From the NCBI RefSeq assembly GCF_901538265.1, contig NZ_LR593886.1, positions 6,841,738 through 6,905,737 of the forward strand: DNA of 64,000 nt, in the 5' to 3' direction. Below the pieces are notes generated by a model. That model worked only from the letters and a program-made list of their open reading frames with translations, searched no databases and was not told the DNA's origin. Positions within the stretch are counted from its first letter, which is position 1. Each line of letters begins with the position of its first letter. This DNA is from Gemmata massiliana. Lineage in GTDB: Bacteria > Planctomycetota > Planctomycetia > Gemmatales > Gemmataceae. Shown here piece by piece: positions 53,215 through 64,000 of the stretch. The position numbers and the translations under genes are program-made.

Positions 53215-55347
53215 TCACTTTCGAGCGACGGCGACGAGCGCGTCTTTTGTGCGAATGAACAGCGCGCCGCCACAAATGGCGGGCGTGGCCATGCACACGT
53301 CGCCCATTTTGTTGACTGCCAGCAGTTCAAATTCCAAACCGGCCTTCACCACTCGCACCTCGCCCTGCTCCGAGGTGAAGTACAGGCGCCCGTCGGCCGC
53401 AACCGGCGAGGCCGTGTAGCTCGTCCCTCCGACCCGCTCCTTGTACAGCTCCTTGCCGGTTGCGGCCTCATAACACGTGACCATCCCGGCATTCCCGATC
53501 GTGTAAAGGTGCTTCTGGTACACGATCGGCGTCGGCATGTACGGCCCGCCGCGCAGTTTGCCCCACGCGACGTGTGTGTTCGTCGATTCGTCGGCCTTTA
53601 GAGAGATGTCGCCGGTCGCGCCGGGCTTGATCGCGAACACCGGTTGAATCGGTCGGTTCCCGCTCACCACGAACGCCAGTTCGGGCGTAAGCACAGGCGT
53701 CGGGACGGTCGCTTCCGATTTCTTGTCGAGGCGCCACAGTTCCTTTCCGGTCGCTGGGTCGTACCCGCGTGCGTATTGCGAGGCATTGGTCACGATTTCA
53801 ACGCGCTTCGCGTTCCGCCACACCGCCGGGCTGCTCCACGACGGGATCTCGTCGCGTGTCGTCGACCAGAGGCGCGAACCGTCCGCGAGACTGTACGCGG
53901 CAATGAACGAGTCCCGGCTCAAGTCGCACTGCAAAATCACGCGGTCCTCGTGGATGATCGGCGACGCGGCGAAGCCCCACTCGTACTGCTGCTCCAGCGC
54001 GAAACTGGAATCGAGGGTGCCGAGGTCGCGCTTCCACAGCAGTTTGCCGTCGAAATCGTAGCAGTACAACCCTTCCGAGCCGAAGCACGCCACGACGCGC
54101 CGGCCGTCGGTCGCCGCGGTGCAGTTCGCATGGCTCCCCTTCAGGTGCCGCTTGATCTTCGGCATGCCCTCGAACGCGGTCTTCGTCCACAGGATCTTCC
54201 CCGTGAGTCGGTCGAGACACACAACCTGGAACGCGAGTTTGCTGTCGTCCTTCACCGAGTTCGGATCGCCGTAGTTCCCGGTCTTCAGCTCGGTGTTCCC
54301 GCCGACCGCGCTGGTGAGGAACACGCGGTCGCCCCAGATCACCGGGCACGAGTGCCCCAATCCGGGAATCGGCGTCTTCCACAGAATGTTCGTTCCCGCC
54401 TTGGCGTCCCACGTCAACGGTGGGTCTTGCCCATCGGCCACACCGGTCGAGTCCAAGCCACGAAACTGCGGCCAGTTCGCCGGCGTTACGGCTTTTCCTC
54501 CGGCAATCTCTTTGGGCGCGACCGGCTCCTTGGGAACGGGCTTCGATCCCTGTGGGAAATACACCGCTTCTGCCGTGAACCGCTTGGAAACGACTCGCGT
54601 AACCTTGTCCCCCTTCCGCTCGAACACGAGTGAACTCTCTTCGACACCAAGAGGAACGAACGCTCCCGGTCCCGTCGGTTTGTACGCGACCCGACTGAAG
54701 CCCGAAACGGTCACCAACCCGGTGTCCTTGATTTCGACCTTCATCACCCCGCCGTATTCGCTCTCGTAACTACCTGCAAACTGTTGCCAGGCGTCGCGAT
54801 CCTTCTGTTCGGCCACTGGCAGCGCCTTCGCACCGGCTTTGGCGAGTGCGTCGCGGACATCCTTCTGCGATTCACCAGTCGAAAAGAGTGCCGCATCGAG
54901 CGCATCCTGGCTCACCTTGGTGCCGTCGAGCAGCGCCCGAAGTACGGGAAGGTTCCCGCGCCCCGCAGCGGAAATCACGGCCGCGTCGACATCCTTGGCG
55001 CCGGCCTTGAGAAGCGCCTTCACGTTCTCCGGCTTGGTGAGTGACTGGCTGAGCGGTGTTTGGTACCAGATGCCGTCGCGGGCACTGGGATCCGCACCGC
55101 GTGCGAGGAGCAGCTCGATGATCTCGGTCTTACCTTTGCTCGTAGCGATCCACAAAGCCGTGATGCCGTACTCGTTCTTGGAGTTGACATCCGCCCCCTT
55201 CTCAATGGCCGCGACGATCGCTTTTTCGTCTCCCGCCCGAACCGCCGCCCAGAGCGCTTCGCGAGCCTCAACTTTAGGGTCAGCCGCCGGCGCGGTAGAC
55301 GTGAGTATCAACGCAAAGACAAACGACAGGAAATAGCACCAGCGCAT
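53215..55347 (-). CDS. Secreted PQQ-type beta-propeller protein with N-terminal ankyrin repeats
   Basis: 710 residues from ATG 55347 (MRWCYFLSFVFALILTSTAP), with a signal peptide to about 22. Ankyrin-type repeats fill about 30-190 (AIVAAIEKGADVNSKNEYGI, ITALWIATSKGKTEIIELLL). A bridging domain (about 200-300, QQFAGSYESEYGGVMKVEIK) leads to a PQQ-like propeller (about 325-710, NWPQFRGLDSTGVADGQDPP; VVCLDRLTGKILWTK; TGKELYKERVGGTSYTASPV). The propeller blades show the W-docking motif ILW. Fusions of ankyrin with PQQ propellers outside the cytosol are unusual; the combination suggests a surface binding role rather than a known dehydrogenase. Confidence 0.85.
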   Translation of the reverse strand: MRWCYFLSFVFALILTSTAPAADPKVEAREALWAAVRAGDEKAIVAAIEKGADVNSKNEYGITALWIATSKGKTEIIELLLARGADPSARDGIWYQTPLSQSLTKPENVKALLKAGAKDVDAAVISAAGRGNLPVLRALLDGTKVSQDALDAALFSTGESQKDVRDALAKAGAKALPVAEQKDRDAWQQFAGSYESEYGGVMKVEIKDTGLVTVSGFSRVAYKPTGPGAFVPLGVEESSLVFERKGDKVTRVVSKRFTAEAVYFPQGSKPVPKEPVAPKEIAGGKAVTPANWPQFRGLDSTGVADGQDPPLTWDAKAGTNILWKTPIPGLGHSCPVIWGDRVFLTSAVGGNTELKTGNYGDPNSVKDDSKLAFQVVCLDRLTGKILWTKTAFEGMPKIKRHLKGSHANCTAATDGRRVVACFGSEGLYCYDFDGKLLWKRDLGTLDSSFALEQQYEWGFAASPIIHEDRVILQCDLSRDSFIAAYSLADGSRLWSTTRDEIPSWSSPAVWRNAKRVEIVTNASQYARGYDPATGKELWRLDKKSEATVPTPVLTPELAFVVSGNRPIQPVFAIKPGATGDISLKADESTNTHVAWGKLRGGPYMPTPIVYQKHLYTIGNAGMVTCYEAATGKELYKERVGGTSYTASPVAADGRLYFTSEQGEVRVVKAGLEFELLAVNKMGDVCMATPAICGGALFIRTKDALVAVARK

Positions 55348-55693
55348 GGAACCGCCCTCGAATCGAGACGGGATCAGATCTCGCAAGTACCGCGGTATTC
55401 TAACTCCCCGCCCATCCCGGAGAAACGGTCCATTCTGGCCCTTGCACAAACACCAACTCGACAACACTTCAGAAACGTGGAACGCGCACTAAAATGACCG
55501 TCTGCCTACCCGTAACGCGGTACATTGTTCGGTCAAAAAATCCTCTCCCCATTCGGCCCGCTTTGTGTGTGCCGCCGATCCAGATTCCGCGTGTTTTGCT
55601 GGAAGATTTGCGGTTCCGAAAAAATCACGAAATCGACTCATTTGGATCGCGTCGAGCGGAATGATGTCTGTGAAGTCACCGATTGAGGATCGT
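55348..55693. other. Divergent intergenic region between propeller gene and sigma-WD40 gene
   Basis: 346 bases. The frame of the sigma gene stays open to 55565 but without a ribosome site until GAGGAT at 55685. I see no gene, hairpin or repeated operator here. Confidence 0.4.
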
Positions 55694-58600
55694 ATGTCGG
55701 TCACCGCCACCCCCGCCTTCGCCGAGGTCATGCGCCAGCTCACGGACGGGCTGCGCCCGGACCGGGTTCGGGACGCGGACCTGCTCGCGGACTTCGTGAC
55801 CGACCAGAACACCGGGTTCGCCGACCTCGTTGCCCGGCACGGCCCGCTGGTGTGGGGCGTGTGTCGGCGCGGGCTGACCGACCCGAACGACGCCGAGGAT
55901 GCGTTCCAGGCCACGTTCCTCGCACTGGCTCGTCAGGCCCGGAGCCTCGCCGATCGCGTGAGCGGGCACGAAACTCTGGCCGGATGGCTGCACCTGACGG
56001 CCCGACGAATCACTCACAACGTGCGCAGAGCGAGGACGAGGCGGTGTGAGCACGAGCGCCGGGCCGCAGCCGAGCGCGAGACACAAGCCGACCTCGTTGT
56101 GGAACCGGGCGCCCTGGGTTCGGTGCTGGACGAAGAACTGGCCCGCCTGCCCGCTCGGTTCCGCGAAACGATCGTTCTGTGCTACTTCCAGGGGAAGACG
56201 CACGCGGACGCGGCCCGGCAACTGGGCTGCCCGGTCGGGTCCGTATCGAGCCGCTTGGCCCGCGGGTGCGAGTTACTGCGTGACGCGCTGGCTCGCCGAG
56301 GTGTCACCCTCAGCATCGGCCTCGTGACAGTGGCCGTTGCGGTAGCGGGCGCGGGCGGACACGCGGGTGCGGCTCTTCCGCCCGGATTGATCCAGTCCAC
56401 GATCACCGCGGCCCGCGCGTTTGCGGTCGGCGGTCCTGCAACCACCGAACCCGGGCGCCTCGCGCTGGGGGTGGTGCAAGCCAAGAGCGGATTGCGGGGC
56501 AAAATCTCCGGCCTCGTGGTGGTCGTGGCTCTGGGAATGACGCTCGCCGCTGCGATGGTGAGTCAAAAGCCCGTTCACGCCGACGGGCCGACGGTAGCGA
56601 ACCCAACCACGGCACCCGAGACGCAACCGCGAACGGATTCGTCAGGCGACCCGCTCCCGGAAGGAGCTGTCGCCCGATTGGGGACGCTGCGTTTCCGCAC
56701 TGGTCAGATGGGGACCGCCGCGAGCGTCGCGTTCGGGCCGGACGGAAAACAACTGATCTCAGCACACGGCGCAGATGTGCTCTACGTCTGGGAGCCAGCG
56801 TCCGGGCGCGAGCTGCGGCGCCTGGACGCTCCGCAAATCTGTAGCGGAGTGAGCACTACTCCGAACGGCCGGCGGATGATCGCCGTCGGGCACGCCGAAG
56901 TGTGGGCGTGGGATCTGGCTGCGAACCAACCGCTCGTGTTGTGGAAGACCAAGATCGGTCGCCTCATTCGCGCGAATGCCGAAATCTCCCCGGACGGTCG
57001 GTGGGTCGCGGTCGGCGGTGAAACGAAAGGAAACGTGATCCTGCTCGACGCGGCCACGGGGGACGAGGTCCGAACGCTCTCCGTTGGCGGGTCCGGGTTC
57101 GCGTTCTCGTCCGATTCCAAACTCATTGCGGTGTGGGCCAAAGCACCGAGTTTGAATGCGGGCACAAAGACAGACGTGACCGTGTGGAACGTGACGGACG
57201 GTAAGCTCCGGTACACGGTGCCGTTCGCAAACACGACCGTGACGAGTGTCGCGTTCGCACCGGACGGGAAGGCGGTCGCCACGGTCGCGGAAGACCGGCG
57301 GCTCCAATTGTGGGACGCAGATAGCGGGAAGGCGCAGTCGAAATTGGCCGAAGACGCCGACCCGCACTCTTCGGTTGGCTTCCTCAAAGACGGCACGCTA
57401 GTCGAAGCAAGTGCGGGGCGGATTCGGTTCTGGAACCCCACAACGGGCAAGCAATCGAAGCCGGCCATCAAGACCACGGACACCGCGGACGTTTACCGCT
57501 TATCGGCGGACGGCACCCAACTGGCCGGAGCCGGGTTGTTCGGCGTCAGTCTGCATGAAGTGGCCTCCGGCCGCGAGATCGGGACCACAGCCGGAATGCC
57601 GGATGGCCTGGTTCACTCCGTCACGTTCACGCCCGATTCTTCGGCGATGGTGATGGCCGTTTACAGCGAATCAGCGGGTGCCGCATTGCACCTGTGGGAC
57701 GCAAAAGACGGCCGGCTCCGCCGGCGCACAGAAGTCGGACCGCGCCAGATCGTTTGGGGCGTCGATGTCGCCGCTGACGGCACCGTGTCGGCCGCGTGCG
57801 TGCCGCTGTATCAGATGCCGCAACCCCCAACCCGCATCGTGACCTGGGACGCGGACCTCGCCCGCGTGCGTGCGACTTTCAGTCTCCCAACCGGCGTTCG
57901 GTGCGGAGCGGCCTCGCCCGATAAGCGCCTGATCGCGATCTCGACGGGCGAACGGGTCATTCTCTGCGACCGAACCACCGGCAAAGAAGTGCGAACCCTG
58001 CCGGGAAAATGTGAAGCCACCAGCCTCGTGTTCTCGGCCGATGGGAGCTGCCTCGGCGCCCTCGACCCCACGGCCAAGCGCGTCACGGTTTGGTCGCTCG
58101 TAGATAAGCGCGACAAGCCGTGGGTGTGGTCACCCGCTCCGGTCATGGGCAAGGCCGCTGATATCCGCGCGCCTCTCGCACTGTCTCCGGACGGGCGGAT
58201 GTTCGCAGTGAACGCGACCGGGATGCACGGCAGTGTCAGCGTGATCGAAACCGCGACCGGCACCGAACTGTGGCACGCGGACGCGCACTTGAGTGGACTT
58301 CCGGCTCAGGAGTTCGCGTTCGCACCGGACGGTCGCACCCTGGCAGCGGCTGGAACAGATGGAACGGTGCGCGTGTGGGAGGTCGCCAGCGGTGGGGAGC
58401 GTTACCGCTTCGCGGGTCACCGGGCCGGAGTGTTCTCGGTCGCGTACAGCCCGGACAGTCGCCGATTGGCCTCTGCCAGTTACGACAGTACCGCCCTCGT
58501 GTGGGACGTGGTCACCCTGCCCCGCGCAACTTCAACTGGGAAAGCCCCGCTGGGAGATCCCTGGCTCGTATTGGCAGGTCGAGACACAACCGCTGCAACG

Positions 58601-59044
58601 CGAGCCATCGCAGCGCTAGCGGATGCTCCGGATACCGCGATCCCGCTGCTCCGGACCAAACTGACGCCGCCTCCCGCAGCGAAGCCCGAACAGGTCCGAC
58701 AGTGGCTCGCCGATCTGGGTGCAGACGATTTTAAGGCCCGTGAAACCGCGAGCCGCGAACTGTCTCTCCGAGGTGACCTGGTGCTCCCGGACCTACGCCG
58801 GGCACTCGCTAACGCGGAAGTTGCCGAAGTGCGATCACGGCTGGAACGATTAATCAACCGACTCGGGGCACAGTCGCCGGACCGCCGGGCGGTGATTCGA
58901 GGAATCGAAGCTCTGGAACGGATGGGAACGAACCCGGACTCGCAGCGATTGCTCCGAGAGTTAGCAGAAGCTCCCGCCGAGAGTGTGTTGGGCCGCGAGG
59001 CCAGGGCCGCGTACAGGCGGCTCACCGCTCCCTCGCCGCAGTAA
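55694..59044 (+). CDS. ECF-type sigma factor fused to WD40 propeller and HEAT-like tail (copy 2)
   Basis: 1116 residues from ATG 55694 (MSVTATPAFAEVMRQLTDGL), preceded by GAGGAT. Sigma region 2 (about 30-110, DAEDAFQATFLALARQARSL) and region 4 (about 140-200, LPARFRETIVLCYFQGKTHA then DAARQLGCPVGSVSSRLARG) are followed by two hydrophobic segments (about 205-225 and 270-295). WD40 repeats run from about 320 to 940 (SVAFGPDGKQLISAHGADVL; SVAYSPDSRRLASASYDSTA then LVWDV). A HEAT-like end covers about 990-1110 (LGADDFKARETASRELSLRG). It is the same architecture as the gene at 49124-52375 and mirrors it across the PEP-CTERM-like and propeller genes. Confidence 0.92.
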   Translation: MSVTATPAFAEVMRQLTDGLRPDRVRDADLLADFVTDQNTGFADLVARHGPLVWGVCRRGLTDPNDAEDAFQATFLALARQARSLADRVSGHETLAGWLHLTARRITHNVRRARTRRCEHERRAAAERETQADLVVEPGALGSVLDEELARLPARFRETIVLCYFQGKTHADAARQLGCPVGSVSSRLARGCELLRDALARRGVTLSIGLVTVAVAVAGAGGHAGAALPPGLIQSTITAARAFAVGGPATTEPGRLALGVVQAKSGLRGKISGLVVVVALGMTLAAAMVSQKPVHADGPTVANPTTAPETQPRTDSSGDPLPEGAVARLGTLRFRTGQMGTAASVAFGPDGKQLISAHGADVLYVWEPASGRELRRLDAPQICSGVSTTPNGRRMIAVGHAEVWAWDLAANQPLVLWKTKIGRLIRANAEISPDGRWVAVGGETKGNVILLDAATGDEVRTLSVGGSGFAFSSDSKLIAVWAKAPSLNAGTKTDVTVWNVTDGKLRYTVPFANTTVTSVAFAPDGKAVATVAEDRRLQLWDADSGKAQSKLAEDADPHSSVGFLKDGTLVEASAGRIRFWNPTTGKQSKPAIKTTDTADVYRLSADGTQLAGAGLFGVSLHEVASGREIGTTAGMPDGLVHSVTFTPDSSAMVMAVYSESAGAALHLWDAKDGRLRRRTEVGPRQIVWGVDVAADGTVSAACVPLYQMPQPPTRIVTWDADLARVRATFSLPTGVRCGAASPDKRLIAISTGERVILCDRTTGKEVRTLPGKCEATSLVFSADGSCLGALDPTAKRVTVWSLVDKRDKPWVWSPAPVMGKAADIRAPLALSPDGRMFAVNATGMHGSVSVIETATGTELWHADAHLSGLPAQEFAFAPDGRTLAAAGTDGTVRVWEVASGGERYRFAGHRAGVFSVAYSPDSRRLASASYDSTALVWDVVTLPRATSTGKAPLGDPWLVLAGRDTTAATRAIAALADAPDTAIPLLRTKLTPPPAAKPEQVRQWLADLGADDFKARETASRELSLRGDLVLPDLRRALANAEVAEVRSRLERLINRLGAQSPDRRAVIRGIEALERMGTNPDSQRLLRELAEAPAESVLGREARAAYRRLTAPSPQ

Positions 59045-59247
59045 TTGACCCGCAGAGCTTGTAGTTTTGTTCGCCGCGTGACGGGGGATTTTGGCTCCGT
59101 TACGTAGGTGCGTGGAATTCATCCCTCTCCGTTCACGCGACCGATACCGGGCCGACTCGCGCTCTCCCCGTGCCCCGGTCGAGTTTGTCGAAACGATTTC
59201 CGATCGTTTCCCTCTTCCCATTATTTTTTGTTAGGGAGGATCGATTC

Positions 59248-60213
59248 ATGATTCGTTCCGCGCGCCGATCCGCGTTCACGCTGATCGAGCTACTGGTCGT
59301 TATTGCGATCATTGCCATTCTTATCGGGCTGCTGCTGCCGGCCGTTCAAAAGGTCCGCGAAGCCGCGGCCCGGATGAAGTGCTCGAACCACCTCAAGCAA
59401 CTGGGCATTGCCGCCCACACGTACCACGACGCCCAACAGAAATTCCCGATGGTGAGCGCGGGCGGGACCACCACGGCCCCCGGCTACGCGACGTGCTTCG
59501 TCCCGCTGCTCCCCTATTTGGAACAATCCGCTCTGTACGACGCCTTCTACTCCAAAGCCATCGCACTGAAGCGGACGTCGATGGGCAACATCAGCGACGG
59601 CGGGACGGGTTCGCTCGACGCGGTGGCCCTCGCGGTCCTGGTCTGCCCGTCTTCCACGCTCCCCAGCGGCGGCGTGGGCCAGCAGCCCGGCACCAACATT
59701 TACAACGGCCTGACGAGCTACCACCCGAGCGCGACCGGCCTGGACCGTTCGGACAGCCGCTGGGGGAGCGACGGCGTGATCTCGAACGTGCGGAACACCA
59801 AGATCCTCGACATCACTGACGGCTCCTCGAACACGCTCATGTTCGGGGAGTGGTCGAACTTCGATCTCAACTTCACGAAGTGGGGCGCCGTGATCGGCAG
59901 CGACTCGTCCTACCAGCTCTGGATTCTCAGCGGGTGCTGGAGCGCGTCGGAAGGTACGTGTCTCGGTACGGGTGGGCTAACGCTCAACTACAATCTGCCC
60001 GCACTGTCGGCCGCAGCCGACCCGGTCACGGCACTCAACACCATCCAGCTCCGGGCACAGGCGTTCGGGAGCATGCACACGGGGGGTGCCAACTTCGGGC
60101 TGGCTGATGGCTCGGTCCGGTTCATCTCGAACAGCGTCAACAGCTCCCCGCTGGTCCTGCCCGCGCTCTGTTCGCGCGCTGGCGGCGAAGTCATCGATTC
60201 TTCCGCGTACTGA
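59248..60213 (+). CDS. DUF1559 pilin-like protein (type II secretion pseudopilin style)
   Basis: 321 residues from ATG 59248, with AGGGAGGA about 8 bases upstream. The N-terminus has the prepilin cleavage and methylation motif [20 protein letters not shown] followed by [20 protein letters not shown]. The body carries the DUF1559 (SBP_bac_10) pattern: [15 protein letters not shown]-like, [30 protein letters not shown], and the C-terminal [16 protein letters not shown]. These proteins are numerous in planctomycetes and probably build type II/IV-like filaments or act in surface uptake. A lipoprotein and hydrolase follow on the same strand within 30 bases. Confidence 0.92.
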
Positions 60214-60241
60214 CCCCGCCCCACCACCGGAGGAACAAACC

Positions 60242-60718
60242 GTGCCGCGCCGATACCTGATCACGTTGCCGTTCGTCGCCCTGATCGCCGGGTGCGGGGA
60301 GCGCCAGCCGGAGTTCGCTGTGGTCGAAGGGACGATCACCCGCAACGGGCGCCCGGCCGCCCACATCGAGGTCGCGTTCTACGCCGACGAGAACACGCAA
60401 GGTCCGCGCACCTCGGGAACAACCGACGCAAACGGTCGGTACCAATTGTTAACCGAAACCGGACAAGCCGGAGCCGTTGCGGGGCGTTATCGGGTGTGTC
60501 TGTACGATCGCGACCCGGCGCTGTTAGTGTCCGCCAACCGGCTCTCACTCACACCGGCCCAGGCGCAAAAGCTCCCGGCAGAAGTCGCCGCCAAGCTCCC
60601 GTCCACAAACGGTCGGTCGAGTTCCCGCGTCCCGGACCCGTATACTCGACCGTGGGAGACGCCGCTGCGGGCCGAGGTCCGGCCCGGAACTCAGGCGCTC
60701 GATTTTCAGATCCCCTGA
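60242..60718 (+). CDS. Putative lipoprotein with carboxypeptidase-regulatory-like (transthyretin-type) domain
   Basis: 158 residues starting at GTG 60242, with GGAGGA 8 bases upstream. The lipobox LIAGC places the modified Cys at 18. The mature part has an Ig-like fold of the carboxypeptidase regulatory-like type: VVEGTITRNGRPAAHIEVAF, TSGTTDANGRYQLLTETGQA then GRYRVCLYD. A small lipoprotein of this type commonly follows DUF1559 genes in planctomycetes. Function unknown; its position suggests joint surface expression with the pilin-like protein. Confidence 0.82.
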   Translation: MPRRYLITLPFVALIAGCGERQPEFAVVEGTITRNGRPAAHIEVAFYADENTQGPRTSGTTDANGRYQLLTETGQAGAVAGRYRVCLYDRDPALLVSANRLSLTPAQAQKLPAEVAAKLPSTNGRSSSRVPDPYTRPWETPLRAEVRPGTQALDFQIP

Positions 60719-60729
60719 CCGGAAGCGCC

Positions 60730-61599
60730 ATGACCCGACGGCGGCGGGTAGTTCTCATTGCGAGCGCTGTCGCTCTCGTGGCCCTCGTTGTGTGGTTGTT
60801 GCTCCCCTCCAACGAGGGGGGAATCGTCTTCGCGGCCCCGGGTGGCACGCCCCTCACACTGGACCTGGATTACCCGTCCGGTCCGGGACCGCACCCGGTC
60901 GTCCTGTTCGCACCACACCGGGGCGATTGGGGGCGCTCGTTCAAGCGCGACGACCGGTGCCGGATTCTGGTCGATAACCTCACGCGCAACGGGTTCGCCG
61001 TTGCCACCATGCACTACCGGCTCGTCGGGGAGTACCGGTTCCCGTCTCAGATCGAAGACGGCAAGGCCGCGGTTCGGTGGCTGCGTGCGAACGGCGCACA
61101 GCATGGTTTGAAGACCGACCGGATCGGCGCAGTCGGCGTGTCGGCCGGCGGGTACGGGGTCTGTATGCTCGGCACGACGGGGCCGAGCGATGGATTCGAT
61201 ACACCCGGCGAAGACCCGGCGGCGAGTCGGGTGCAGGCGGTTGTGGCGCTCGGTGCCCCGGTCGACTGGACGGCCCCGATCTGGTCGAAAATGGTCGAGC
61301 GACAGTACCTGCGCCCGTACCTCGGCAAGACCTACAGCGAAGACCCGGACCTCTACACGCGCGCGTCGCCGGGCACTTACGCCACCGCGGACGACCCGCC
61401 CTTCCTGCTGATTCACTCCGTTGACGACCAACTGATTCCCATCGCACAGGCCCATGCCTTCGCCGTGAAACTCCGCCGCGCGAATGTGCCCGTCGAGATC
61501 GTGGAGGAAACCGGCGCCGAACACGTGTGGGGCGGTGAGCGCCTGGAAAAGACGCTCACAACGGTGGTTCAGTTCCTCGACCGCACACTCCGCCGGTAA
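60730..61599 (+). CDS. Alpha/beta hydrolase, membrane-anchored or exported
   Basis: 289 residues from ATG 60730, 11 bases after the lipoprotein stop. An N-terminal hydrophobic helix (about 7-25) acts as anchor or signal. The serine hydrolase pattern is clear: VVLFAPHRGDWGR (oxyanion loop), GVSAGG (136-141, nucleophile Ser138), HSVDDQLIP (acid) and GAEHVWG (His). It belongs to the esterase/xylan-esterase-like BD-FAE group often found in planctomycetes. The substrate is unknown, possibly an acylated polysaccharide. Confidence 0.87.
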   Translation: MTRRRRVVLIASAVALVALVVWLLLPSNEGGIVFAAPGGTPLTLDLDYPSGPGPHPVVLFAPHRGDWGRSFKRDDRCRILVDNLTRNGFAVATMHYRLVGEYRFPSQIEDGKAAVRWLRANGAQHGLKTDRIGAVGVSAGGYGVCMLGTTGPSDGFDTPGEDPAASRVQAVVALGAPVDWTAPIWSKMVERQYLRPYLGKTYSEDPDLYTRASPGTYATADDPPFLLIHSVDDQLIPIAQAHAFAVKLRRANVPVEIVEETGAEHVWGGERLEKTLTTVVQFLDRTLRR

Positions 61600-61702: not shown

Positions 61703-63979
61703 TCACCGGATCGTTTCAAGTAGTGGAAGAGTGTGCGAAGTGCGGCCGATCTCGATACGACTACTCGTCGTCTCCAGGTTCGCGTAACACGTCCCGTCTG
61801 CCATGAGGTTCCAACTCCGGCAGACGCCGGTCGCGCGCTCCCAGAACACGCTCGGTTCGGTGTACGCGGCAACGGTTAGTTCCTTCCCGCGCCAGTGGAG
61901 CCGATAAACGGGCGAACCCCACGGCAGCTCGCTAACCTTCTCCGCGCCGTTGTTACGAAGGAACTCGGTCACCAAGCTCAGCGGCACCTGTTGGTCCGCG
62001 GACCACGAGTTGTAGGCACTGTCGTGATAAACGGATTCGTTGCTGGCCGCGACGTAGAGTTCCTTGAAGCAGATCTCGTCGCCGCCCGTTTCAACGACCC
62101 AAGTCAGGTAGTCTCGTAACGTACACTCGTCCGAAACGCCCGCTTTTTGCAGCACGCACACCCACCGGAGCGTCAACCCGGGCCACTCCCCGCGGTGCGC
62201 CTGCCACGCTTGCGCAACGCGCTCCGAGTGCGTTTCCAGGTGCATGATTTCGGCGTTGCGGTCGTGACTGTGGCGCGAAAGGGCGAGCACCGTTAGCCCG
62301 CTCTCGTAGTAGTCGCGAAGGGTGCACAACCGGTCGGCCGGGTCCGCGTGCCCGAGCTTGTAGCCGTTGGTAATCATCACGATCTTGCGGAAGTGTTTCG
62401 CGCCGACACGCATGATTTCCAGCAACTTGTGATGAGCAAGTAATGTCGGTTCGCCACCGCCGGTAATCACGAGGCGTTCCGCTCCCCGCGCGCGGCTCTC
62501 CGCGCACGCGGCTTCCAGGCGCGGTAGCACGAGCAGGCCCTGGTCCTGCTCATCGGAAATCGAGGAGTGTGAGAAGCAAAAGTCGCACTTCGCCTGGCAC
62601 GCACTGGCAATCGGCAGCACCGAGAGCGAGCGCGGATTCACGTCGCCCCAAGCGCGGAGGTTCCCGTTCAGTTCCAGCGACGCCGCGAGTGCGTCTTCGG
62701 TACGGAGTTCGGTCAGCGTGTCGTCCAGAAGCCGCTCAACGCGGACGTAATTCTGCTCGATGTACTCGCCCAAACCGGTGCGTTCATTGGCGCGGAGTTT
62801 GTGCCGCGCGACGCGCGTGTGGAGCACGATCGCGCGGTCGCGTGCGGGTATCTTTTGGAGCAAGCGCCCCACTTTGGCGAACCCAATGTCGAGTTGATCG
62901 TTCGGGAGCAGGTAGAACTGATCGGGGTACGTGGATTCTGGGATGTTCGCCTTGCTGTAGGTGCGCGAATACTTGTCGTACCCGCGGGCGAAATTCGACA
63001 GCGCGGTGACGTGGTACCGGTCCACGATTTCCGTTTCCGCGCCCGCGTTGGTCTCGTGCAGGCACGAAACGATGGAGAGCGTGTTACTCGTCCCGTACAC
63101 GTCGCCCGGCACAGCCAGCACGCCGCGCTCCAGCAGTTCCGTTTGCGGCACGTTGACAACAGACAAGTACCCCGATTCGGGCGGCATCCAGTTCGCGTCG
63201 AACGCGCGAATGCTCGCGGCGAGCCGGCCCCATCGCGAGCGAAAAATCGATCGCTGCGTTCGCGGGAAGTGCCGGTACCGCGTGAGCAGCACTTTCGCTT
63301 GGTCCGATTCGCGTGTATCCGCGGAAGGAAGTGCGAAGCGCTCGGGAGCGATCACGAATCCGGACACGAGCGGCGCCAGATGACTCTTCGACAGGGAGTG
63401 ACAGACGATGACTTGGTTCGTGTCGATGAGCGGCTGAAGGCGTGCGGAGTTGGCGTAGTCGTAAACGCGATCGATCACCAGCAGCCGGTTCGCGTCCGCG
63501 CTGAGCCACCGGAGCAGTACCGATATCTCGTGCTCGGTTAGGTCGCGTCCGAGTGGCGTGTGCGGGGCCGTGAGGAGCACGGTGTTCGTGCGAAGTGTAC
63601 GTTCGATGTCAAATTTGGGGAGCGTTGGGTACGTCTCGATTCGTGCCCCGGCTTTCTGCGCGATCATCAGATAGACCGGGTACACGTCCGCGGGCACCGA
63701 AATCACGCGATCGTTCAGCGGGCCGGCGAAAAGCTTGAAAAGAGAGTCGCGCACGCCGACCGAGCGGAAGCTGTGCGTGAATCGCACGTTGAGGTATTTG
63801 CGCCAGGCGTGTTCGAGGGTGATTTCCGGCGGAGATGTGAAATCGAAGCCGCGTGCGATGGCTTTGACGGGGCTCAAACAGTCCAGTCGTAGTAACCCCG
63901 GTTGCCGCGCAAGCGCCTCGGCAGCAAACGCCTTGAACGCCACGAACGCGGGGCTGACTTCGCGTGTGAGTTCGGACAC
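61703..63979 (-). CDS. Aminotransferase-radical SAM fusion protein
   Basis: 758 residues from ATG 63979. Residues about 35-310 form a PLP-dependent fold type I aminotransferase domain of the histidinol-phosphate aminotransferase style. The substrate-anchoring loop is TAPHTPLG (137-144, in place of NPHNPTG). Asp170 and Tyr173 in IDRVYDYA contact the pyridine ring. The Schiff-base Lys is probably Lys198 in SLSKSH. A helical linker (about 315-450) leads to a radical SAM domain with the iron-sulfur motif Cys461, Cys465 and Cys468 (CQAKCDFC), the GGGEP SAM-binding loop at 507-511, and further Cys at 720 and 731 near the C-terminus that may carry a second cluster. I do not know a described family with this order. 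No partner gene is visible before the window ends at 64000. Confidence 0.85.
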   Translation of the reverse strand: MSELTREVSPAFVAFKAFAAEALARQPGLLRLDCLSPVKAIARGFDFTSPPEITLEHAWRKYLNVRFTHSFRSVGVRDSLFKLFAGPLNDRVISVPADVYPVYLMIAQKAGARIETYPTLPKFDIERTLRTNTVLLTAPHTPLGRDLTEHEISVLLRWLSADANRLLVIDRVYDYANSARLQPLIDTNQVIVCHSLSKSHLAPLVSGFVIAPERFALPSADTRESDQAKVLLTRYRHFPRTQRSIFRSRWGRLAASIRAFDANWMPPESGYLSVVNVPQTELLERGVLAVPGDVYGTSNTLSIVSCLHETNAGAETEIVDRYHVTALSNFARGYDKYSRTYSKANIPESTYPDQFYLLPNDQLDIGFAKVGRLLQKIPARDRAIVLHTRVARHKLRANERTGLGEYIEQNYVRVERLLDDTLTELRTEDALAASLELNGNLRAWGDVNPRSLSVLPIASACQAKCDFCFSHSSISDEQDQGLLVLPRLEAACAESRARGAERLVITGGGEPTLLAHHKLLEIMRVGAKHFRKIVMITNGYKLGHADPADRLCTLRDYYESGLTVLALSRHSHDRNAEIMHLETHSERVAQAWQAHRGEWPGLTLRWVCVLQKAGVSDECTLRDYLTWVVETGGDEICFKELYVAASNESVYHDSAYNSWSADQQVPLSLVTEFLRNNGAEKVSELPWGSPVYRLHWRGKELTVAAYTEPSVFWERATGVCRSWNLMADGTCYANLETTSSRIEIGRTSHTLPLLETIR

Positions 63980-64000
63980 GGCTGACTCTTTCTGAAATGG

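Follow-up and report, generated by a model that had tools for sequence, protein, structure and literature searches.

A single-chain fusion of an aminotransferase and a radical SAM enzyme in Gemmata massiliana, with split relatives, as a candidate amine-forming tailoring system

A stretch of 64,000 nucleotides from the genome of Gemmata massiliana (hereafter, the window; the genome is one contig of 10,135,216 bases) encodes a protein in which an aminotransferase domain dependent on pyridoxal phosphate (PLP) is joined to a radical S-adenosylmethionine (SAM) domain. The motifs of both cofactor sites are conserved among relatives, and judging from them each half is probably active. The gene is fused in relatives of Gemmata and split elsewhere into two overlapping genes, which are followed at some loci by a methyltransferase gene. 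Our tentative proposal, to which we give somewhat less than even chances, is that the protein is a tailoring enzyme with two activities and an unusual amine as its product: the radical SAM half would generate a carbonyl, the aminotransferase half would aminate it, and the optional methyltransferase would methylate the product. Such a relay would explain the pairing of the two enzymes, the loss of the carboxylate-binding site from the aminotransferase, and the third gene.

The fused gene is genuine and under purifying selection

The gene is a single open frame of 758 amino acids on the minus strand, running from a GTG at 63979 to a stop at 61703 (Table 1), with a G+C content of 0.63/0.46/0.78 at the three codon positions. 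An original prediction, made from the sequence of the window, had given these coordinates correctly and had left the strand unstated; it had also described two cofactor systems on one chain, and this fusion proved real. The aminotransferase half matches PF00155 (Aminotran_1_2) over residues 90-301 with 36.3 bits against a cut-off of 19.7, the radical SAM half matches PF04055 (Radical_SAM) over residues 457-574 with 31.9 bits against a cut-off of 29.5, and relatives carry the same fusion. For comparison, the radical SAM protein of one split relative scores 59.1 bits with PF04055. All residues that had been singled out (Lys198, Asp170, Tyr173, TAPHTPLG, Cys461/465/468, and GGGEP at 507-511) were numbered correctly.

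The fusion is encoded in 6 of the 95 genomes of the family, the window's own included (5 of the 66 better ones), at 56-100% identity over nearly the whole chain; a locus of 95% identity is on record for Gemmata sp. IIL30. The ratio of nonsynonymous to synonymous substitution rates (dN/dS), calculated by segment (aminotransferase, middle, and radical SAM) for four pairs from 4 of the 6 fused genomes, is 0.09-0.22 in all three, and purifying selection acts on both halves. Because the same fused frame recurs in six genomes with these dN/dS values, a chance frame or a mis-assembly is ruled out. An in-frame TGA or a selenocysteine was rejected as well, as the “1 TGA” flagged in genome matches falls outside the aligned proteins once these are read. 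A tree built from 18 radical SAM rows places the fused rows in a single group (support 98/99), so that one fusion event suffices, and the split rows are unsupported as a group (47/0).

The two halves are separate, overlapping genes in other genomes

Genome searches were confined to the planctomycete phylum, and plasmid, viral, and phage records were searched besides. A threshold of 1e-40 gave 6 matches among 392 genomes of the phylum, one in the window's own genome and 5 in a single genus, here called g41. Within the family of g41, 7 of 170 genomes matched at 1e-30, namely six of g41 and a more distant genome (G528, discussed below). All six g41 genomes encode a radical SAM protein first (453-457 amino acids) and an aminotransferase second (321-323 amino acids), with a gene overlap of 4 bp, and the same pair with the same 4 bp overlap lies on two Embleya megaplasmids. 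Both halves are present at each of the 14 loci that make up this main family, as separate proteins in 8 of them.

In four of the six g41 genomes (G142, G275, G332, and G509), a methyltransferase gene follows 3' of the pair with an overlap of 4 or 8 bp. Since all split loci keep the pair and only some keep the methyltransferase, the pair forms the constant core, to which the methyltransferase is an optional addition. The genes around the three-gene set of G142 are unlike those at the other five g41 loci. The methyltransferase of G332 (class I, and the one copy scanned) has its best match, at 1.1e-34 and over nearly its full length, in the daptide methyltransferase family NF041820. When one split relative's methyltransferase was used as query, the six genomes with the fused gene gave only weak matches far from the fusion, the best at 1.1e-15 (G026).

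Two 42 kb stretches of the Embleya plasmids have just 2,468 bp in common (97% identity; blastn, 1e-10), and this segment is the radical SAM/aminotransferase cassette. The methyltransferase is a broken remnant on both plasmids: about 75 of its codons still match in NBC_00896, and no more than the first few are left in NBC_00888. As nothing but the cassette is shared, its ends are sharp (L011:19891-22358 and L012:19891-22357), and the methyltransferase breaks off at a different point on each plasmid, the Embleya cassette looks mobile. In the g41 genome G393 (L023:8725-10095), a Tyr stands in place of the first cluster cysteine and the methyltransferase is missing; its nearest relative, G483, retains that cysteine, and the radical SAM gene of G393 is perhaps at the onset of decay.

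Viral contigs and phage records yielded no relative. A search with the whole chain returned four plasmid records; in two of them (Pseudooceanicola and Ruegeria), the match is confined to the aminotransferase half (26-29% identity). On the Hymenobacter swuensis plasmid pHsw1 (L077:7581-9196), a gene annotated as hypothetical encodes a protein weakly related to the radical SAM core (24.9% identity over 47%, E 4e-4) and overlaps the gene for a 171-amino-acid protein that is nucleotidyltransferase-like by eye, making another two-gene pair.

The aminotransferase half retains its PLP residues and has lost usual substrate contacts

Lys198, Asp170, Tyr173, Ser195, Pro139, Pro142, Gly144, and Arg145 are unchanged in all 14 sequences of the main family. 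We take Lys198 to be the Schiff-base lysine, Asp170 to contact the ring nitrogen of PLP, and Tyr173 to contact O3'. Loss of Lys198 among homologues had been named beforehand as an observation that would overturn the prediction, and it did not come about. Positions of the usual aminotransferase residues were mapped through alignments to the solved class I/II enzymes 2o1b and 3euc; presumably these residues correspond to N194 (the Asn of the NPTG loop), R266 (the phosphate-binding Arg), and R386 (the alpha-carboxylate-binding Arg) of aspartate aminotransferase. Position 141, aligned with the Asn, is T, M, V, or K across the 14 sequences; position 205, aligned with the phosphate-binding Arg, is V, L, Q, H, or T, with Arg in one sequence; and position 303, aligned with the carboxylate-binding Arg, is I, L, or V throughout. 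The half therefore has the score and the Lys, Asp, and Tyr of a PF00155 member and lacks the other three residues.

As the carboxylate-binding Arg is missing, the substrate is probably something other than a standard free alpha-amino acid, and a carbonyl borne by a sugar, a nucleoside, or a peptide would fit. A changed substrate had already been proposed from the unusual TAPHTPLG loop. The proposal stands on the loss of the two arginines and of the Asn, but the loop itself does not carry it, since His140 occurs in only 2 of the 14 sequences. Membership of the HisC family was rejected (TIGR01141, 37.3 bits against a cut-off of 276.55).

The radical SAM half has a conserved cluster motif and an additional domain

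Cys465, Cys468, and the GGGEP motif are present in all 14 sequences and Cys461 in 13, with the Tyr of G393 in the fourteenth. The half thus combines a PF04055 score above the cut-off with the CxxxCxxC and GGEP-type motifs, and the cluster cysteines, whose variation among homologues was another observation that could have overturned the prediction, are kept in 13-14 of 14 homologues. A further suggestion, that a cysteine pair near the C-terminus binds an auxiliary cluster as in SPASM-type enzymes, did not hold. SPASM enzymes have a C-terminal motif of seven cysteines, and beyond residue 637 there are only two, Cys720 and Cys731. Cys731 is invariant in the main family, like Cys608 and Cys637, and Cys720 is found in 12 of 14 sequences, with Ala in the other two. 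Four distant relatives, compared in a 16-row alignment that included them and omitted Embleya, retain Cys720 and have lost both Cys637 and Cys731 (Val or Ala at 731 in all four). As the main family varies at 720 and the distant relatives lose 731, the two are not kept together. From the alignments, an auxiliary cluster might still be held by other cysteines that are invariant in the main family (608, 637, and 731).

Residues 319-450 lie between the two enzyme domains; in the split relatives, this segment belongs to the stand-alone radical SAM protein and forms its N-terminal part. Used as the sole query, this segment matched 6 of the 392 phylum genomes, each among the carriers of this radical SAM core already found, and a sequence search against solved structures in the PDB returned nothing credible (best E = 1).

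The predicted structure of the full chain has a mean predicted local distance difference test score (pLDDT) of 82.3 and a predicted template modelling score (pTM) of 0.71, and the mutual placement of its domains is unsure. Its pLDDT falls below 50 at residues 199-203, beside Lys198, and at 459-464 and 470-481, in the cluster loop. The N-terminal part matches aminotransferases, such as 6f35_A (Z 20.7, 300 residues, 3.7 Å). A separate model of residues 315-758 (pLDDT 85.7, pTM 0.84) has its matches mostly within its own residues 127-434, and they include GDGT-MAS (7tol; Z 22.2, 273 residues, 3.0 Å), SuiB (5v1s_A; Z 20.1, 253 residues, 3.4 Å), viperin (5vsm_A; Z 19.8, 234 residues, 3.1 Å), and MoaA (2fb2_B; Z 19.8, 267 residues, 3.7 Å). 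As modelled, the core is near in fold to viperin, MoaA, BlsE, DesII, and SuiB, whose substrates we take to be nucleotides, sugars, and peptides. Three assignments were rejected on family scores: prokaryotic viperin (NF038283, 35.2 bits against a cut-off of 180, with a PADLOC pVip match restricted to residues 457-544), MoaA (TIGR02666, 27 bits against 284), and BlsE (TIGR04466, 16.6 bits against 400).

A distant branch pairs the radical SAM core with a lysine-less partner

A radical SAM profile run at 1e-20 against 397 genomes of the class gave 16 matches: 12 of the main family, and one each in G528, G663, G681, and G689. The radical SAM proteins of these four match at 32-37% identity and have no recognisable 319-450 domain. 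The next gene in each encodes an aminotransferase-like protein in which SFSR replaces the SFSK of aminotransferases. A profile built from these four aminotransferase-like proteins weakly matched a Pyrococcus aminotransferase (E = 0.0024), with the Arg aligned to the lysine. It did not join the aminotransferase half of the window protein in a profile comparison, and the one protein of the four that was run against Pfam had no match.

By eye, a gene of the vWA/HExxH type lies upstream in three of the four genomes (G663, G689, and, partially, G528), with further unassigned genes between, and G663 additionally has a MoxR-type AAA ATPase. In G681, the 1.4 kb upstream to the contig end shows by eye no vWA or MoxR gene, but a sigma-factor-like frame. 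A passage of a 2020 paper on MoxR-vWA conflict systems mentions a radical SAM effector in simpler FtsH systems (PMC7159879); the word “aminotransferase” is absent from that paper.

A relay from carbonyl to amine and its alternatives

In the proposed relay, the radical SAM half would cleave SAM to a 5'-deoxyadenosyl radical and, through an oxidation, deamination, dehydration, or decarboxylation, leave the substrate with a keto or aldehyde group. This carbonyl would become an amine by PLP-dependent transamination in the aminotransferase half, and the third enzyme, where present, would methylate the product, perhaps at the new amine. That both halves are active, that they act in series and in this order, and the kind of substrate are parts that we infer from sequence.

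A number of observations weigh against this relay. Model confidence is low in the loops at both cofactor sites (199-203 and 459-481), one split relative (G393) carries the Tyr for Cys461, and the aminotransferase-like partner in the distant branch lacks the lysine in all four genomes. The spread is patchy: 4 of the 19 genomes of the window's genus have the fusion, and at least two further g41 genomes (G163 and G321) gave no match. The methyltransferase is missing at most loci; it does not follow the split pair in G483 and G393, two of the six g41 genomes, and none of the split-relative type was found near any of the six fused genes. The scanned neighbours of the window gene include no substrate gene, sugar cluster, or transporter. 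Finally, the known relays of radical SAM enzymes and aminotransferases considered here presumably use other aminotransferase subfamilies.

The system could instead serve peptide or protein maturation, with the radical SAM half altering a peptide residue and the aminotransferase, with or without the methyltransferase, turning the carbonyl into a (methylated) amine, in a daptide-like manner at the C-terminus. The scanned methyltransferase is nearest to the daptide family (120 bits, against 56.9 for the next-best family), the fold of the 315-758 model also resembles the peptide-modifying SuiB, SkfB, and EpeE, and the loss of the alpha-carboxylate Arg would suit an amine within a larger molecule. 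Passages of PMC10036551 give the daptide order as oxidative decarboxylation, transamination, and dimethylation. However, the 120 bits are below the family cut-off of 175, and in the same passages daptide aminotransferases are looked for with PF00202 and set beside enzymes of class III, not class I/II (PMC10036551). No precursor peptide was identified in the gaps flanking the window gene, which hold just two frames of 28 amino acids, and inspection of the six g41 loci by eye showed no small conserved frame linked to the cassette outside the larger genes (at least 25 amino acids, in at least three other genomes). We consider a peptide substrate of this kind possible, if unlikely.

That the aminotransferase half is non-catalytic, and serves the radical SAM half only by binding the substrate (or PLP) or holding it in place, appears quite unlikely. 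The phosphate-binding Arg, the carboxylate-binding Arg, and the Asn are all gone, and the partner in the distant branch has Arg for Lys in four of four, but Lys198, Asp170, and Tyr173 are invariant in all 14 sequences, across two phyla and at identities as low as about 30% for this half. A single composite reaction, in which the substrate would be bound to PLP as an aldimine while the radical acts on it, on the pattern of lysine 2,3-aminomutase, would account for two cofactor sites on one chain and for a fusion maintained under selection. Yet 8 of the 14 relatives encode the halves as two proteins, and with the NCBIfam aminomutase-like model the score is 20.5, where the cut-off is 396. Lysine 2,3-aminomutase carries its PLP within the radical SAM chain, with no separate fold-type-I domain, and the active sites of fold-type-I enzymes lie in a dimer cleft; we therefore regard a composite reaction as very unlikely.

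The relay from carbonyl to amine can also be extended to a more far-reaching reading that includes the distant branch. The fused protein would then represent a new enzyme family that passes its substrate between the radical SAM and PLP sites of one chain, with residues 319-450 holding the substrate, and forms a C-N bond beyond the reach of normal transaminases, and the related branch would have turned its aminotransferase into a lysine-less partner beside vWA/MoxR-type genes. All of this being true together we deem unlikely. The distant branch may show how such a partner turns into a binding protein.

Sequence features and genomic surroundings

The features of the fused gene and the loci of the distant branch are collected in Table 1.

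Table 1. Features of the fused gene in the window and loci of the distant branch.
Feature	Position	Strand	Basis
Whole gene, N-terminal aminotransferase half and radical SAM half, 758 amino acids, GTG start	61703..63979	-	Frame, Pfam, relatives
AAAGAG, likely ribosome-binding site, 6 bases 5' of the GTG	63986..63991	-	Read from sequence
Fold-type-I (class I/II) aminotransferase domain, residues 1-312	63044..63979	-	PF00155; profile matches to solved aminotransferases, best 2.7e-8; model matches Z ~19-21
PHTPLGR, residues 139-145, at the place of the NPTG loop; P139, P142, G144, and R145 invariant, H140 and T141 variable	63545..63565	-	Alignment
Asp170 (63470-63472) and Tyr173 (63461-63463), putative PLP-ring contacts	63461..63472	-	Kept in 14/14
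Lys198, predicted Schiff-base lysine	63386..63388	-	Kept in 14/14
Additional domain, residues 319-450, many invariant polar residues	62630..63025	-	Seen only alongside this radical SAM core
Radical SAM core, residues 451-745	61745..62629	-	PF04055; model close to MoaA, viperin, SuiB, GDGT-MAS
CQAKCDFC, residues 461-468, CxxxCxxC cluster motif	62576..62599	-	Alignment
GGGEP, residues 507-511	62447..62461	-	14/14 main family and 4/4 distant relatives
Cys720 (61820-61822) and Cys731 (61787-61789), unconserved as a pair	61787..61822	-	Alignment
Distant radical SAM and aminotransferase-like loci	L068:4708-9577 (G689); L070:5473-12814 (G663); L050:1-4060 (G528); L069:3330-5155 (G681)		

Neighbouring genes vary between the fused loci. 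The first 6.4 kb to the right of the window gene encode a polysaccharide deacetylase, an ADP-ribosylglycohydrolase, S20, EF-Ts, S2, and a HisA-like protein; the other neighbours scanned are a BD-FAE-type hydrolase and a DUF1559 protein. A precursor peptide, a transporter, or sugar genes had been thought worth seeking within 10 kb on this side, and none was among the neighbours scanned in those 6.4 kb. In another fused genome (G011; L026:6423-11066), the fused gene is directly adjoined by a relative of a window gene named by eye as encoding ankyrin/pyrroloquinoline quinone (PQQ) repeats (53215-55467, the left part of the window region 53215-61599), and the genes between the two in the window were therefore gained here or lost there. 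A long frame at 55565-59044 appears by eye to encode a sigma factor of the extracytoplasmic function (ECF) type fused to WD40-like repeats.

Comparison with known systems

Radical SAM enzymes and PLP-dependent aminotransferases act consecutively in natural-product pathways such as that of desosamine, as separate proteins encoded in large clusters. In desosamine biosynthesis, a sugar pathway, the radical SAM enzyme DesII produces a keto intermediate, which the aminotransferase DesV aminates and DesVI N,N-dimethylates. In blasticidin S biosynthesis, a radical SAM step by BlsE is followed by the PLP-dependent aminotransferase BlsH, and both are encoded by separate genes in a nucleoside-antibiotic cluster. 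DesV presumably belongs to an aminotransferase subfamily other than that of the window protein. DesII, DesV, and DesVI are listed as enzymes of the TDP-desosamine pathway in passages of PMC11760250. In the predicted structures, DesII resembles the radical SAM half (Z 16.1, 254 residues, 3.9 Å), a likeness of fold; no DesII family model is among the best 25 of the 36 NCBIfam families matched. BlsE (7vob) is likewise similar in fold (Z 17.3, 238 residues, 3.9 Å), whereas the radical SAM half stays far under the BlsE cut-off.

The logic of the proposed relay is also that of the daptide enzymes MpaB, MpaC, MpaD, and MpaM, which according to passages of PMC10036551 proceed from a carbonyl through transamination to methylation, with decarboxylation, transamination, and N,N-dimethylation taking place at the peptide C-terminus. 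As described in the same passages, the core daptide pathway differs in that it has no radical SAM step, which is an extra in some clusters, and in that it uses another class of aminotransferase (PMC10036551). Unlike daptide clusters, the six g41 loci contained no precursor that we could find. Considered singly, the radical SAM core has MoaA and viperin among its nearest folds and best sequence matches, and differs from them by scores far under their cut-offs and by the additional domain at 319-450. Class I/II aminotransferases similar to HisC and CobD are the nearest matches of the aminotransferase half in sequence and fold, from which it differs by the loss of three usual PLP- or substrate-binding residues.

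No fusion or cassette of a radical SAM enzyme and an aminotransferase is described in the open-access literature (titles and abstract openings, among the matches listed), and no characterised homologue that would contradict the predicted novelty of the fusion appeared there. What sets the present system apart is that one to three genes make up a minimal unit without further genes around it that seem to belong; because this unit stands alone, fused in relatives of Gemmata and split elsewhere, the radical SAM/aminotransferase pair itself has the look of a functional core. Should the relay be true, a single expressed protein would offer a direct assay of coupled radical and PLP chemistry and a route to its amine product. 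Measured against the systems above, the one-chain form, the stand-alone cassette, and the additional domain are new, while both superfamilies and precedents for the logic are already known.

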